From Streptacidiphilus sp. PB12-B1b (GTDB lineage Bacteria; Actinomycetota; Actinomycetes; Streptomycetales; Streptomycetaceae), in contig NZ_CP048405.1 of NCBI RefSeq assembly GCF_014084125.1, positions 5,890,001 to 5,954,000 of the forward strand: a stretch of DNA of 64,000 nucleotides, written 5' to 3'. Of this stretch, positions 7,523-31,892 are shown one piece after another. Below the pieces are notes generated by a model, which did no database searches, had not been told where the DNA came from, and worked only from the letters and a program-made list of their open reading frames with translations. Each line of letters begins with the position of its first letter. Position 1 is the stretch's first letter. The position numbers and the translations under genes were made by a program.

Positions 7523-7571
7523 CGGCCGGGGGGGCGGGCGCCGGGTGTGAGAAGAGTCGCCGGGCCGTGTG

Positions 7572-7601
7572 TTGACGGTCGGTCCGGCAGCGTGGTGGGA
7601 T
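7572..7601 (+). promoter_or_regulatory. Sigma-70-type promoter of cobalamin operon half 1
   Basis: TTGACG at 7572-7577, 18-nt spacer, TGGGAT at 7596-7601. The string CGTGGTGGGAT around the -10 box is identical to that of the second cob promoter (30909-30914). The predicted start lies near 7608, just before the aptamer. Confidence 0.6.
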
Positions 7602-7604
7602 CAT

Positions 7605-7800
7605 TGCGCCAAACGGAGGCATGCAGAGGAAGCCGGTGCGAATCCGGCGCGGTCCCGCCACTGTCACCGGGGAGCGCTTTCGAACGACGGCCACGGCAGT
7701 GCGGTACCGCTGCGGGAAGGCCCGGAAGCGCGTCGATCCGGAAGCCAGGAGACTCTCGCCCCCGGTACGTCGATCCAGGGCGCGGACCCTGAGTGAGGAC
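7605..7800 (+). ncRNA. Cobalamin riboswitch 1
   Basis: The conserved core AGCCGGTGCGAATCCGGC followed by GCGGTCCCGCCACTGT at 7631-7664 and the B12 box AGCCAGGAGACTC at 7743-7755 identify a class-I adenosylcobalamin aptamer. P5 is GCCGG/CCGGC with loop TGCGAAT (7637-7643). The expression platform is a short hairpin, AGGG-CGCGGA-CCCT (7777-7790), whose CGCG can pair with TGCG of L5, as in the known L5-L13 kissing loop. The Shine-Dalgarno sequence GAGTGAGGAC (7791-7800) abuts it directly, so translational control is the likely mode: ligand closes the kissing loop and hides the ribosome site. Exact 5' limit uncertain. Confidence 0.93.
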
Positions 7801-7810
7801 ATCCCACGCC

Positions 7811-7873
7811 ATGCGCGTCCCCTGCCTGCCACCCCCGCACGCCGCCCCCACCGTCCCGCAGCCGCTCCGCTGA
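7811..7873 (+). CDS. Riboswitch-proximal leader peptide ORF, Pro-rich, 20 aa
   Basis: ATG 7811 lies 10 nt after the riboswitch-controlled GAGGAC; the cobD start has no such site of its own. The 20 codons encode 7 prolines, including a PPP triplet at residues 7-9, begin Met-Arg and end in Arg. Its TGA (7871-7873) lies six nt before the cobD GTG and overlaps an in-frame CTG. The second riboswitch is followed by a similar ORF (31084-31152). Likely role: translational coupling between riboswitch and cobD, perhaps with polyproline stalling. The peptide itself may have no function. Confidence 0.6.
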   Translation: MRVPCLPPPHAAPTVPQPLR

Positions 7874-7878
7874 CCGCC

Positions 7879-8877
7879 GTGCGCAGCGCACCGGCCCTGG
7901 GCGTCGCGGCGGGATACGCCGCCGACGCCGCCTTCGGCGACCCCCGGCGCGGGCACCCGGTGGCCGGGTTCGGCCGGGCGGCCGGGGCGCTGGAGCGACG
8001 GCTGTGGCGTGACCACCGGGCGGTCGGCGCGGCCTTCACCGCCCTGTGCGTCGGGACGGTCGCGGCCGGGGCGATCGCCGCCGAGCGCGCGGTGCGCGGG
8101 CCCTCGGGCGGCGGCTCCTCCGTCCGTTCCCCGGGCCTGGCGTCGGCGGGCCGGATGCTGCTGGCCGGGGCGGCGACCTGGACCGTGCTCGGCGGCGCGT
8201 CGCTGGTCCGCGAGGCGCGGACGATCGGCGGCTCGCTGCACGCCGGGGACCTGCCCGCCGCCCGCGCGCGGCTGCCGTACCTGTGCGGGCGCGACCCGCG
8301 CGGGCTGACGGAGCAGCAGATCGCCCGCGCGGTGGTGGAGTCCGTCGCCGAGAACACCGCCGACGCCGTGGTCAACGCCCTGGTCTGGGGCGCGCTGGCG
8401 GGCACGCCGGGGCTGCTGGCCTTCCGGGCGGTGAACACCCTGGACGCCATGGTCGGCCACCGCTCGCCGCGCTACCTGCGCTTCGGCTGGGCCTCGGCCC
8501 GGCTGGACGACGTCGCGGGCTGGCCCGGCGCCCGGCTGACCGCGCTGCTGACCGTCGCCGCCGCCGGTCCCGGGCGGCGCGCGGAGACCTGGCGGGTCTG
8601 GCGGCGCGACGCCTCGGCCCACCCCAGCCCCAACGCCGGCCAGGCCGAGGCGGCCTTCGCGGGCGCACTCGGCGTCCGCCTCGGCGGGACGCTGGCGTAC
8701 GGGACCAGGACCGAGCACCGGCCGGTGCTGGCGGCCGAGTGCCGTCCGGTGGCGGTCGGCGACATCGAACGGGCGTGCGTGCTGTCGCGCCGGGTGGGGC
8801 TGCTGGCCGTCGGCGCGGCGGTCGCGGCGGTCCTGCTCCGGGAACGCCTCGGCGGACGTGGGAGGGAACGGCGTTGA
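7879..8877 (+). CDS. cobD: Adenosylcobinamide-phosphate synthase (CobD/CbiB)
   Basis: 332 aa, typical for the family. This membrane enzyme attaches the aminopropanol (phosphate) arm to adenosylcobyric acid. Family motifs: [17 protein letters not shown] near the N-terminus, [17 protein letters not shown] in the centre, then [19 protein letters not shown] and [14 protein letters not shown]. Hydrophobic Ala/Leu/Val stretches are the expected membrane helices. The start is uncertain: GTG 7879 is the first ordinary start codon after the leader ORF, while an in-frame CTG at 7870 would overlap the leader stop. Neither has its own Shine-Dalgarno, so expression probably depends on ribosomes that translated the leader. 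Confidence 0.93.
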
Positions 8878-10370
8878 CGGGTGCACTGCTGGTCGCGGGG
8901 ACGACCTCGGACGCGGGCAAGAGCGTGGTCACCGCGGGCATCTGCCGTTGGCTGGCCCGCACCGGCGTCTCGGTCGCGCCGTTCAAGGCGCAGAACATGT
9001 CGCTCAACTCCTTCGTCACCGCCGACGGCGCGGAGATCGGCCGGGCCCAGGCCATGCAGGCGGCGGCCGCCGGGATCGAGCCGGAGGCGGCGATGAACCC
9101 GGTGCTGCTCAAGCCCGGCTCGGACAGCCGCAGCCAGGTCGTGGTGCTGGGCCGCCCGGTGGCCGAGGTCGGCGCGCTCGACTACCACCAGCGCAAGCCC
9201 GCGCTGCTGCGGATCGCCCTGGACTGCCTGGCCGACCTGCGCCGCCGCCACGACGTGGTGGTGTGCGAGGGCGCGGGCTCCCCCGCCGAGATCAACCTGC
9301 GCGACCGCGACCTGGCCAACATGGGCCTGGCCACCGCCGCCGGACTGCCGGTGGTGGTCGTCGGCGACATCGACCGGGGCGGGGTGTTCGCCTCCATGTA
9401 CGGGACGCTGGCGCTGCTGTCGGCGGAGGACCAGCGGCACATCGGCGGCTGGATCGTCAACAAGTTCCGCGGCGACGTCCGGCTGCTCCAGCCCGGCCTG
9501 GACATGCTGCTGAAGCTGACCGGGCGCCCCACCGTCGGCGTACTGCCGATGCTGCAGGGCCTGTGGCTGGACGCCGAGGACTCGCTCGACCTGGCCGGGC
9601 TGGTCGACCGGGCCCCGAGCGGCCCCGCCCACGGCGCGGAGGTGCTGCGGGTGTCGGTGGTGCGGCTGCCCCGGCTGTCCAACTTCACCGACGTCGACGC
9701 CCTGGCCCAGGAGCCCGGCGTCCTGGTCCGCTGGGCCACCCGGCCGGAGGAGCTGGCCGACGCCGACCTGGTGGTCCTGCCCGGCAGCCGCGCCACCGTC
9801 GCCGACCTGGCCTGGCTGCGCGAGCGCGGCCTGGACGCGGCCCTGGCCCGGCGGGCCGCGCAGGGACAGCCGCTGCTCGGCGTCTGCGGCGGCTACCAGA
9901 TGCTGGCGCGCGAGGTCGTGGACGAGGTCGAGTCCCGGGCCGGGGCCGTCCCCGGACTCGGACTGCTCCCGGTGCGAGTGGAGTTCGCCCGGGAGAAGAC
10001 CCTGGCCCGCCCGGTCGGCGAGGCGTACGGGCAGACCGTCGCCGGGTACGAGATCCACCACGGGGTGGCCACCGTGGAGGGCGGCGAGCCGTTCCTCGAC
10101 GGCTGCCGCACCGGCGCGGTCTGGGGCACCACCTGGCACGGCGCGCTGGAGAACGACGGCTTCCGCCGGGCCTTCCTGCGGGAGGTCGCCCAGCTGGCCG
10201 GGCGCGCTTTCACCCCCGCGCCGGACACCTGCTTCGCCGCCGCCCGCGAGGACCGGCTGGACCGGCTCGCGGACCTGATCGAGGAGCACGCCGACACGGC
10301 GGCGCTGCTGCGGCTGATCGAGGGCGGCGTGCCGACCGGGCTGCCGTTCGTACCGCCGGGCGCACCGTGA
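8874..10370 (+). CDS. cobQ: Cobyric acid synthase (glutamine-hydrolysing)
   Basis: 498 aa. It amidates side chains b, d, e and g of adenosylcobyrinic acid a,c-diamide. Start is TTG 8874, overlapping the cobD stop (TTGA), with GGAGGG 8-10 nt upstream. The N-terminal dethiobiotin-synthetase-like ATPase domain begins [18 protein letters not shown] and continues [15 protein letters not shown]. The C-terminal triad-type glutamine amidotransferase domain has [12 protein letters not shown] (nucleophile Cys about residue 338) and a catalytic His in [11 protein letters not shown]. All key residues appear intact. Third cistron behind riboswitch 1, counting the leader ORF. Confidence 0.96.
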
Positions 10371-29505: not shown

Positions 29506-30888
29506 TTGGACACAGGTCTGGACCGGGACACACCCGTACTGGTCGTCAAGATCGGCCACTACCCGCTGCACCACGGCGGCGTCGGCGCGATCCGCAGCCT
29601 GGGCCGGGCCGGTGTGCCGGTCTACGCCGTCGCCGAGGACCGCTACACCCCGGCGGCGCTCTCCCGCTTCCTGCGCGGACGCTTCGTCTGGCCCACCACC
29701 GGCGCCGAGCCCGCCGCCGACCTGGTGGACGGCCTGGCCCGGATCGGCCGGCGGATCCTGGAGCGCGAGGGCCGCCGCTGCATCGCGCTGCCCACCGACG
29801 ACGAGGCCGCGGTGCTGCTGGCCGAGCACGCCGAGGAGCTGGCCCCGTACCTGCTGATGCCGCGGGTGGAGGCGGGGCTGCCGCGCGCCCTGGCCGGGAA
29901 GCAGTCGCTGCACCGGCTCTGCCTGGAGCACGGCGTGGCCACCCCGCGCTCGGCCCGGCCCGCCACCCGGGAGGAGCTGGAGGCCGCCGCCGCCCAGCTG
30001 GTCTTCCCGATCGTGGCCAAGAACGCCGACCCGTACGCGCGGCTGAGTGATCCGGCGGTCGGCTCCACCACGGTGCTGGCGGACCGGGCCGCGCTGGACC
30101 GGCTGGCCGCGGGCTGGACCGGCCCCGCCCTGCCCCGGGTATTGCTGCAGGAGTACCTGCCGGTGGAGCACTCCGAGGACTGGATCGCCCACCTGTACTG
30201 CGGCGACCGCGCCCGCGAGGACGCCGCGGAGCTGGTCTTCACCGGCGTCAAGGTGCGCGCCTGGCCGCCGCGCGGCGGGGTCACCGCGCACGCCTACACC
30301 ACCGCCAACCCCGAACTGGCGCGGGAGAGCGCCCGGTTCTGCCGCGCCGTCGGCTTCCACGGCATCTGCGACCTGGACTGGCGCTTCGACCGCCGCGACG
30401 GCCGCTACAAGCTGCTGGACTTCAACCCCCGGCTGGGCGCGCAGTTCCGGCTGTTCGAGACCGGCCCAGGAATCGACCTGGTCCGGGCCATGCATCTGGA
30501 CCTCACCGGCCGGAGCCTGCCCGAGGGCGGGCAGCTGGAGGGCCGCCGCTTCACCGTGGAGATCCTGGACGGCCCGGCCCGGATCGCCGCCCGCCGCGGC
30601 CAACGCTCCGCGCAGCTGCCCGAGCCGCCGAAGGCCGCCCCCGAGTCCGCACCCGAATACGCACCCGGGTCCTTGCCCGGGGACGCCCCGGCCGGCGGCG
30701 CCGCGCAGGGCCGGGGCCGGCTGCGGGAGTTGGCCTGGAGCGCCGCGGACGATCCGCTGCCCGCGCTGTCGGCGGTGGTCCGCTCGGCCGGTCCGGCCGT
30801 GCACCGGCTGCGCGGAGCAGCCGGTTCGCTGCGGGGCGCGGCCCGGCGCGGGCCCCGACGTGGGACAGGACACACCCCCTCCGGTTGA
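29506..30888 (+). CDS. ATP-grasp carboxylate-amine ligase-like protein
   Basis: 460 aa from TTG 29506, preceded by AGGGGGG with a 7-nt spacer; no ATG or GTG in this frame fits. The N-terminal pre-ATP-grasp domain reads VLVVKIGHYPLHHGGVGAIRSLGRAG. The ATP-grasp fold follows: LPRALAGKQSLHRLCLEHGV, FPIVAKNADPY (ATP Lys), LLQEYLPVEHSEDWIAHLY, and CDLDWRFDRRDGRYKLLDFNPRLGAQF (metal-binding Glu/Asp/Asn region). The last ~90 residues are low-complexity Pro/Ala/Arg. Such enzymes couple a carboxylate to an amine or hydroxyl; a role in decorating the glycan is inference. Its TGA lies inside the -35 box of the second cobalamin promoter. Confidence 0.85.
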   Translation: MDTGLDRDTPVLVVKIGHYPLHHGGVGAIRSLGRAGVPVYAVAEDRYTPAALSRFLRGRFVWPTTGAEPAADLVDGLARIGRRILEREGRRCIALPTDDEAAVLLAEHAEELAPYLLMPRVEAGLPRALAGKQSLHRLCLEHGVATPRSARPATREELEAAAAQLVFPIVAKNADPYARLSDPAVGSTTVLADRAALDRLAAGWTGPALPRVLLQEYLPVEHSEDWIAHLYCGDRAREDAAELVFTGVKVRAWPPRGGVTAHAYTTANPELARESARFCRAVGFHGICDLDWRFDRRDGRYKLLDFNPRLGAQFRLFETGPGIDLVRAMHLDLTGRSLPEGGQLEGRRFTVEILDGPARIAARRGQRSAQLPEPPKAAPESAPEYAPGSLPGDAPAGGAAQGRGRLRELAWSAADDPLPALSAVVRSAGPAVHRLRGAAGSLRGAARRGPRRGTGHTPSG

Positions 30889-30914
30889 CTGCCGCGCGCG
30901 GCGCGTGGTGGGAT
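30885..30914 (+). promoter_or_regulatory. Sigma-70-type promoter of cobalamin operon half 2
   Basis: TTGACT at 30885-30890, 18-nt spacer, TGGGAT at 30909-30914. Spacer length and the 11-nt string at the -10 box match the first cob promoter (7572-7601). The -35 hexamer overlaps the stop codon of the ATP-grasp gene. Confidence 0.6.
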
Positions 30915-30919
30915 TCCGG

Positions 30920-31077
30920 GGCCTGATACGGCGGCATTGATGAGGAAGTCCGGTGCGATTCCGGCGCGGTCCCGCCACTGTCACCGGGCGGCCCGGCGCA
31001 CACCGTCGGCCCGTCCGCGAGCCAGGAACTCTGGCCGCCGTCACCACGAAACGGGGCGCGGACCCCGAGTGAGGACT
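30920..31077 (+). ncRNA. Cobalamin riboswitch 2
   Basis: The core GTCCGGTGCGATTCCGGC with GCGGTCCCGCCACTG (about 30948-30980) and the B12 box AGCCAGGAACTC (31020-31031) mark a second class-I aptamer, shorter in its variable arm than riboswitch 1. P5 is CCGG/CCGG with loop TGCGATT. The expression platform GGGG-CGCGGA-CCCC (31053-31066) differs from that of riboswitch 1 by one compensatory base pair and keeps the same loop, which can kiss L5. GAGTGAGGAC follows at 31067-31076 as the controlled ribosome site. Confidence 0.93.
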
Positions 31078-31083
31078 GCCGCC

Positions 31084-31152
31084 ATGCGCTCTGCCGCGCC
31101 CCCGCCCTTCCCCCTGCCTGCTGCTCCGGTGCCTGCCCCGGCCGCTCGGTGA
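31084..31152 (+). CDS. Riboswitch-proximal leader peptide ORF, Pro-rich, 22 aa
   Basis: ATG 31084 is 7 nt after the riboswitch-controlled GAGGAC. It begins MRSAAPPPFPLP and has 8 prolines in 22 residues, with PPP at residues 6-8 and a terminal Arg. Its TGA overlaps the cobI GTG (GTGA at 31149-31152). cobI has no independent Shine-Dalgarno, so its translation should depend on this ORF. It is the counterpart of the leader at 7811-7873. Confidence 0.6.
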   Translation: MRSAAPPPFPLPAAPVPAPAAR

Positions 31153-31892
31153 GCCCGCGCCAGCTGGGCCCGCGCCTGGTGGGCCTGGGCATGGGCCCCG
31201 GCGATCCGGAACTGGTCACGGTCAAGGCGGTCCGGCTGCTGGCCGAGGCCGACGTGGTGGTGGTGCCGGTGCTGGACAGCGGCGAGACCGGCCGGGCCGA
31301 GGCCACCGTGCTGCACCACACCGGTGCGGCCAAGATCGAGCGCATCGTCTTCGCGCTGAACGAGCGGCAGGACCGCGCCCGGCGCGAGGCGGCCTGGGAT
31401 GCGGCCGGGGCCCGGGTGGCGGAACTGCTGCGGGAGCACGGCCTGGTGGCCTTCGCCACCATCGGCGACCCCAACATCTACTCGACCTTCACCTATCTGG
31501 CGCAGACCCTGACCGCCCTGGTGCCGGGGCTGGTGGTGGAGACCGTCCCCGGGATCACCGCCATGCAGGACCTGGCCGCGCGCAGCGGCACCGTCCTGGC
31601 CGAGGGCACCGAGCCGCTCACCCTGGTGCCGGTCACCGCCGGTTCCGCGGTCCTGCGCGAGGCGCTGACCGGGAGCGGGACCGTCGTCGCCTACAAGTTC
31701 GGGCGGCACGCGGCCGAGGTGGCCGAGGCGCTGTCCGGGACCGGACGCGACACCACCGCTGTCTGGGGGGCCTCGCTGGGCCTGCCGGACGAGCAGATCC
31801 GGCCCGTCGGCGAGCCCCTGGACGGCCCGCTGCCCTACCTGTCCACCCTCATCGCCCCGGCGACCCGCACCACCCGTGGAGGCAAGCTGTGA
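31149..31892 (+). CDS. cobI: Precorrin-2 C20-methyltransferase
   Basis: 247 aa, family size. It uses SAM to methylate C20 of precorrin-2. GTG 31149 overlaps the leader stop. The tetrapyrrole-methylase N-terminal motif is LVGLGMGPGDPELVTVKAVR; then LVAFATIGDPNIYSTFTYL (GDP loop) and VETVPGITAMQDLAARSG, characteristic of CobI/CbiL. C-terminal GTVVAYKFGRHAAEVAEAL is also family-typical. First enzyme gene of the second cob half. Confidence 0.95.
   Translation: MSPRQLGPRLVGLGMGPGDPELVTVKAVRLLAEADVVVVPVLDSGETGRAEATVLHHTGAAKIERIVFALNERQDRARREAAWDAAGARVAELLREHGLVAFATIGDPNIYSTFTYLAQTLTALVPGLVVETVPGITAMQDLAARSGTVLAEGTEPLTLVPVTAGSAVLREALTGSGTVVAYKFGRHAAEVAEALSGTGRDTTAVWGASLGLPDEQIRPVGEPLDGPLPYLSTLIAPATRTTRGGKL

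Follow-up and report, generated by a model that had tools for sequence, protein, structure and literature searches.

The window, which comprises 64,000 nucleotides of the genome of Streptacidiphilus sp. PB12-B1b, holds two cobalamin riboswitches, one upstream of cobD and one upstream of cobI. At both junctions the Shine-Dalgarno sequence (SD) at the end of the switch precedes a short open reading frame and not the biosynthetic gene, as an earlier note on this DNA had claimed. The features of the two loci are as follows.

7626..7755, + strand: cobalamin riboswitch aptamer core 1 (RF00174 model positions 45-169; cmscan 77.8 bits, E 1.9e-17)
7776..7791, + strand: P13-like hairpin 1, CAGGG-(CGCGGA)-CCCTG, ending three nt 5' of the SD (sequence; covariation)
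7795..7800, + strand: SD GAGGAC of leader ORF 1 (sequence; anti-SD duplex -7.3 kcal/mol)
7811..7873, + strand: leader ORF 1, 20 aa, MRVPCLPPPHAAPTVPQPLR, with a TGA stop (sequence; frame kept in relatives)
7879..8877, + strand: cobD/cbiB, GTG start, without an SD of its own (NF002276 412 bits, PF03186; anti-SD duplex -0.6 kcal/mol)
30942..31031, + strand: cobalamin riboswitch aptamer core 2 (RF00174; cmscan 37.6 bits, E 6e-06)
31052..31067, + strand: P13-like hairpin 2, CGGGG-(CGCGGA)-CCCCG (sequence; covariation)
31071..31076, + strand: SD GAGGAC of leader ORF 2 (sequence; anti-SD duplex -7.3 kcal/mol)
31084..31152, + strand: leader ORF 2, 22 aa, MRSAAPPPFPLPAAPVPAPAAR, stop in a GTGA overlap with cobI (sequence)
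31149..31892, + strand: cobI (precorrin-2 C20-methyltransferase), GTG start within the GTGA overlap, without an SD (TIGR01467 222 bits; anti-SD duplex -1.7 kcal/mol)

The ATG of leader ORF 1 at 7811 is spaced 10 nt from its SD, and that of leader ORF 2 lies 7 nt behind an identical GAGGAC. Leader peptide 1 contains seven prolines with one PPP triplet, and leader peptide 2 contains eight with PPP at residues 6-8. Five nucleotides separate the TGA of leader ORF 1 from the GTG of cobD, the G of the GTG being the sixth, and cobD is read in a different frame from its leader. These particulars, including the second ORF of the same design that overlaps cobI by GTGA, agree with what the earlier note had described. 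The gene products are securely identified as CbiB/CobD (7879-8877) and CobI/CbiL (31149-31892). The stretch 8876-10370 matched no NCBIfam family, probably because it was read in a wrong frame.

Both window riboswitches score above the RF00174 gathering threshold of 31.5 bits and carry the B12 box, and their matches are limited to model positions 45-169, which we take to reflect a compact, class-II-like form. The genome as a whole has five RF00174 matches, four of them above the cut-off and three of them outside the window. Among the latter, a full-length cobalamin riboswitch (L001, 1501-1723) stands, by eye, before an apparent metE that has its own purine-rich SD, with no short leader ORF noticed. 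A sub-threshold match of 24.7 bits (L005, C1:3353006-3353057) lies on the opposite strand about 2.6 kb from that switch and could be a decayed copy. The two window hairpins share the loop CGCGGA, and in each case the SD begins three nt 3' of the hairpin. Across 13 distinct stem and loop combinations both sides of the P13-like stem are altered at three of five pairs; in a single combination the outer pair is a C-C mismatch. The CGCGGA loop at 7776-7791 is likely the kissing-loop partner of L5.

Ribosome-binding potential was compared by the energies of duplexes with the anti-SD. All 100 leader loci evaluated (L098 left out) reach -6 kcal/mol or lower at the leader SD, and at cobD only 17 of these 100 do so, against 22 of 100 shuffled sequences. 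A simple scan of both junctions (7550-8000 and 30860-31300) found no intrinsic-terminator-like site, which fits a translational platform; a terminator hairpin between leader and gene, as in a transcription attenuator, is likewise missing from the window junctions as far as the intrinsic type is concerned. The region of the window's cobD leader folds less stably than its shuffles, with z +1.8 in one run and +1.9 in another.

From this arrangement we infer that the switches bind B12 and turn expression off, and that the leaders are translated and followed by reinitiation. Each riboswitch would act as a translational OFF switch: its expression platform, made of the P13-like hairpin and the adjacent SD, would gate ribosome entry to the short leader ORF. 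Without B12 a ribosome would initiate at the leader ATG, terminate at the TGA beside the SD-less start of cobD or cobI, and reinitiate at the gene start, which lies five nt downstream at cobD and inside the GTGA overlap at cobI. With B12 bound the SD would be blocked, leaving both leader and gene untranslated. The leader would then be a landing pad, whose start, stop and frame matter and whose peptide matters hardly or not at all. That a landing-pad leader and termination-reinitiation operate under a translational OFF switch is, in our judgment, likely at both loci.

The conservation of the leader was examined with an order-wide pattern consisting of the B12 box, GAGTGAGGA and ATG, applied to 147 genomes (the window's genus being placed in Kitasatosporales). 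It matched 112 of them: 111 of 131 genomes of the large sister genus of Streptacidiphilus, which we take to be Streptomyces, and the window's own genome, at cobI. None of the 15 genomes from two other families matched. Pattern matches and the window's genus together yielded 124 non-redundant cobD junctions, with the gene located by motif search; two further loci (L124 and L103) with a leader-like start, where the gene motif was not recognised, stand outside this set. A leader ORF is found at 101 of the 124 junctions, and at the remaining 23 the start codon that follows the SD, ATG or GTG, opens cobD itself.

All 101 leaders end in TGA, and in 100 of them this stop falls within -4 to +7 nt of the cobD start, most often with a gap of 4 nt (59 of 101). 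The exception, L098, fits with a gap of 3 when a second ATG is used. Shifted-frame controls placed a stop in this range in 1 of 101 cases in each of the two other frames; this control is weak, since by construction the TGA belongs to the leader frame. Changes in length with the frame kept, counted on a tree, are the stronger test of conservation. The leaders have 20 distinct lengths between 17 and 89 aa, and on a tree of 121 of the 124 cobD genes (three short rows were dropped) length changes at least 46 times with the frame to the TGA always kept. On the same tree the state of the junction, leader or direct, changes at least seven times. These counts are approximate, as much of the tree is poorly supported: 31 of its 118 branches are starred, and the strongly supported branches alone force two leader/direct changes. 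Within Streptacidiphilus, one group has cobD leaders in all seven sequences and the other group has them in none of seven.

The requirement for an ATG in the pattern had passed over 20 genomes of the sister genus. cobD was found in 18 of these and could be classified in 16 (L239 and L242 have the gene and stand outside the 16), giving ten leader and six direct junctions; one of the ten leaders stops 11 nt inside cobD. Streptomyces-like cobD leaders (for example L012, L017 and L028) look much more alike at their M-x-G-C start and their AG-then-TGA-CC end than in the middle. A test for a long-range helix as the cause of these alike ends gave no clear explanation.

cobI junctions are fewer. Six of the 14 classified have a leader and eight are direct, and the leaders overlap cobI by GTGA in five cases and by 7 nt in one. 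The state at cobI matches that at cobD genome by genome with the exception of L179, a direct cobI with a proline-rich stretch fused to it in frame; few tree events are involved. Outside the 14, because its gene motif was not recognised, is L183 from a related genus, in which a leader that overlaps cobI by ATGA was seen by eye.

A class-wide pattern search matched 52 of 345 genomes. In the matches outside the window's family the P13-like hairpin was absent by eye except in one genome (G389, L081), whose gene appears to have a direct start. A class-wide cobD search (57 of 118 genomes) yielded 30 loci, of which 22 lie beyond the family; of the 15 of these 22 that were listed, three showed a riboswitch by eye. 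Two are direct (L258, L262), and in the third, L264 of another family, a leader seen by eye precedes cobD at a distance of 5 nt. When named genomes were scanned for a variant hairpin-SD element, 116 loci were obtained (one of which, L334, with a misplaced leader start, is locus L189 of the family set). They include 103 cobN junctions, 86 direct and 16 with a leader (the mis-parsed L367 left out), five leader and four direct cobI junctions, and four cobD junctions, three with a leader and one unclassified. Stop and start overlap by 4 nt in 14 of the 16 cobN leaders. Among the loci listed by name (80 of 116), ten cobN leaders come from Streptosporangium, Sinosporangium, Planomonospora and Planobispora, genera of the order Streptosporangiales (looked up for two of them). 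A closely similar riboswitch-cobN junction to that of Blastococcus occurs in a record named 'UNVERIFIED_ORG: Bacillus sp. AZ43' (L294), which is perhaps mislabelled.

In the direct class nine cobN genes have 21-84 aa before the conserved motif and the rest have 3-17. The long stretches may possibly be former leaders that became fused. Long and variable N-terminal extensions, often rich in Pro, Ser or Thr, were seen behind this riboswitch element in CobN of L326, L327, L332, L353 (Planotetraspora), L301 and L385, with 45-73 and 84 aa ahead of the conserved motif. Since leaderless junctions account for 23 of 124 cobD, six of 16 further cobD and 86 of 103 cobN cases, the switch does not require a leader.

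The comparison supports the suggestion, also made in the earlier note, that the reading frame matters and that leader and gene may be translationally coupled. The leaderless junctions count against this, as does the distance from stop to start at cobD, mostly +3 to +5, which differs from the overlap in ppe2. A masking helix between the leader start and the cobD start, one that translation of the leader would open, was considered as a further element. The duplex has -21.5 kcal/mol, as compared to -19.4 for shuffled sequences and -18.9 for a control segment, with a mean z of -0.69 over 100 loci, 70 of which are stabler than shuffled (L098 left out). In the seven loci of the window's genus z is -0.17, and a swap test gave P 0.15. 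Masking the leader start hardly moved the predicted accessibility of the cobD start, from 0.33 to 0.35 in 92 loci and from 0.33 to 0.32 in the seven. We regard this as a weak tendency, insufficient to build on, and with the helix at most weakly supported the missing SD is the only barrier found to independent initiation at cobD. An anti-SD inside the leader was rejected as well, as the region after the start pairs with the SD worse than shuffles do (for example -8.06 against -9.10 for 93 leaders at cobD, and -7.35 against -9.86 for six at cobI). So was a fusion protein made by stop readthrough or frameshift. The gap between leader and cobD modulo 3 is 0, 1 and 2 in 18, 60 and 23 of the 101 junctions, and with all three relative frames occurring a conserved fusion is unlikely.

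A different role for leader translation would be protection from Rho, in which ribosomes shield C-rich RNA and a B12-blocked SD exposes the untranslated leader as a rut site. In the window's genus the cobD leaders do have much C and little G (C 0.555, G 0.224), and in M. tuberculosis Rho-dependent termination was called likely at the metE B12 switch (PMC11260477) and was reported at the pe20 Mbox (PMC12810186). Leaderless cobN junctions, however, are also rich in C after the start (C 0.45, G 0.23), so that C-richness is not specific to leaders, and from the ppe2 stop-codon mutants the authors concluded that Rho was not the cause of the loss (PMC11260477). As the explanation of the leaders we find Rho doubtful, with a modest chance of being correct; a Rho layer could also act alongside coupling.

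A further possibility is that the peptide itself has a function, as a trans-acting small protein or a nascent-chain sensor. Substitutions were counted in 27 disjoint pairs of similar leaders of equal length. They fall evenly on the three codon positions (75/59/75), as opposed to 120/98/329 in cobD of the same pairs. Synonymous codon changes are at the null (51 observed, 47.4 expected, P 0.28). The sole hint of peptide constraint is a slight deficit of nonsynonymous changes (119 observed, 130 expected, P 0.037), to which the recurring M-x-G-C and AG ends of the Streptomyces-like leaders may be added. Against these stand the flat codon positions, the range of lengths and the junctions that have no leader, and we consider a functional peptide very improbable. 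Selection appears to act on the frame and not detectably on the peptide.

The earlier note had also raised polyproline stalling, in which the leader would slow ribosomes in an EF-P-dependent manner as a second layer of control. PPP does occur in both window leaders, and of the seven cobD leaders in the window's genus all have PP and three have PPP. Proline in these seven is nevertheless at the level set by composition (42 observed, 39.9 +- 3.8 shuffled), and in the other 93 cobD leaders (L098 left out) it is below it (325 observed, 421.6 +- 14 shuffled). The cobI leaders (26 observed, 27.4 expected) and cobN leaders (100 observed, 104 +- 7 expected) are likewise unremarkable. Leaders contain from 0 to 11 prolines, and PPP is found in only six of 101 cobD leaders, three of these in the window's genus, and in one of six cobI leaders. 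Across the family leaders no selected, conserved polyproline motif was found. In the first 60 nt of direct genes proline is far below composition for cobD (14 against 57) and cobN (114 against 305), and at composition for cobI (19 against 18.3). With proline at or below composition in leaders and low in direct cobD and cobN, the prolines need no more than C-rich DNA and little protein constraint. Stalling thus found no backing in the comparison, and we judge it very improbable. That the leader is an untranslated spacer whose frame is open by chance is scarcely credible, for even though 79% of shuffled leaders remain open at this base composition, the comparison already contradicts it with stop position and frame kept in 100 of 101 leaders (all 101 with L098 corrected) of 20 lengths through at least 46 changes.

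The landing-pad leader may belong to a wider pattern. We propose, with moderate confidence, that actinobacterial B12 riboswitches have repeatedly gained disposable relay ORFs, at three genes (cobD, cobI and cobN) and in at least two orders. Only the start, the frame and the stop would be under selection, with the peptide free to drift, and a junction would pass between three forms: a separate leader, a leader fused onto the N terminus of the gene product, and direct initiation. If this is true, a riboswitch platform can be installed in front of a gene whose own initiation site is not needed. What had been reported once, for ppe2, would then look like a widespread design among the operons for B12 biosynthesis in Streptomyces and its relatives. 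A natural experiment is offered by sister lineages, some of which have the leader and some of which lack it, and by leaders that hold their frame as their sequence drifts; the many natural variants also lend themselves to work on the distance and overlap at which reinitiation occurs in high-GC bacteria. The leader belongs in gene models and in riboswitch reporters for these operons.

Short leader ORFs before biosynthetic operons are also known from the amino-acid attenuators of Streptomyces lividans, which differ in that their leaders carry codons of the pathway's amino acid (PMC8079986). The same source places a cobalamin riboswitch before cobD-cobQ-cobN of that species, and the available part of its leader-peptide table covers amino-acid-related genes with no entry for cobD (PMC8079986). 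Among the open-access literature matches listed, none reported leader ORFs at these cob genes in Streptomycetaceae or Streptosporangiales, which is not proof of absence. In M. tuberculosis the Mbox-pe20 uORF is similar in that a translational platform acts on a small uORF before the annotated gene; it differs in being under a Mg2+ switch with Rho termination reported, and in that its uORF encodes a peptide described as highly conserved, with a paralogue (PMC12810186), while the cob leader peptides drift.

The earlier note knew of no named family for the leader peptides. Neither window peptide matched Pfam or PHROGs, but the arrangement does have a precedent in uPPE2, the uORF of the ppe2 B12 riboswitch of M. 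tuberculosis, for which mutants of the start codon, the SD and the stop codon demonstrated termination-reinitiation (Kipkorir et al. 2024, PMC11260477). There, as at the cob loci, a compact B12 riboswitch ends in an SD that serves the uORF, the main ORF is without an SD, and the uORF has a poly-proline stretch and a stop that adjoins the main start (PMC11260477), a position conserved at cobI as GTGA and at cobD as a short gap. Expression appears alike, mainly by termination-reinitiation, established by mutants in ppe2 and proposed here for cobD and cobI. The known case is one locus, a PPE gene before cobQ/U with an AUGA overlap (PMC11260477), whereas the window has two B12-biosynthesis operons in one genome, with a 5-nt gap at cobD and GTGA at cobI, and the cob leaders are family-wide with repeated exchange between leader and direct states. 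The B12-riboswitch relay leader is thus of a known kind, and the cob cases are wider and evolutionarily more fluid than those in the earlier reports, as far as the accessible text of those reports extends.
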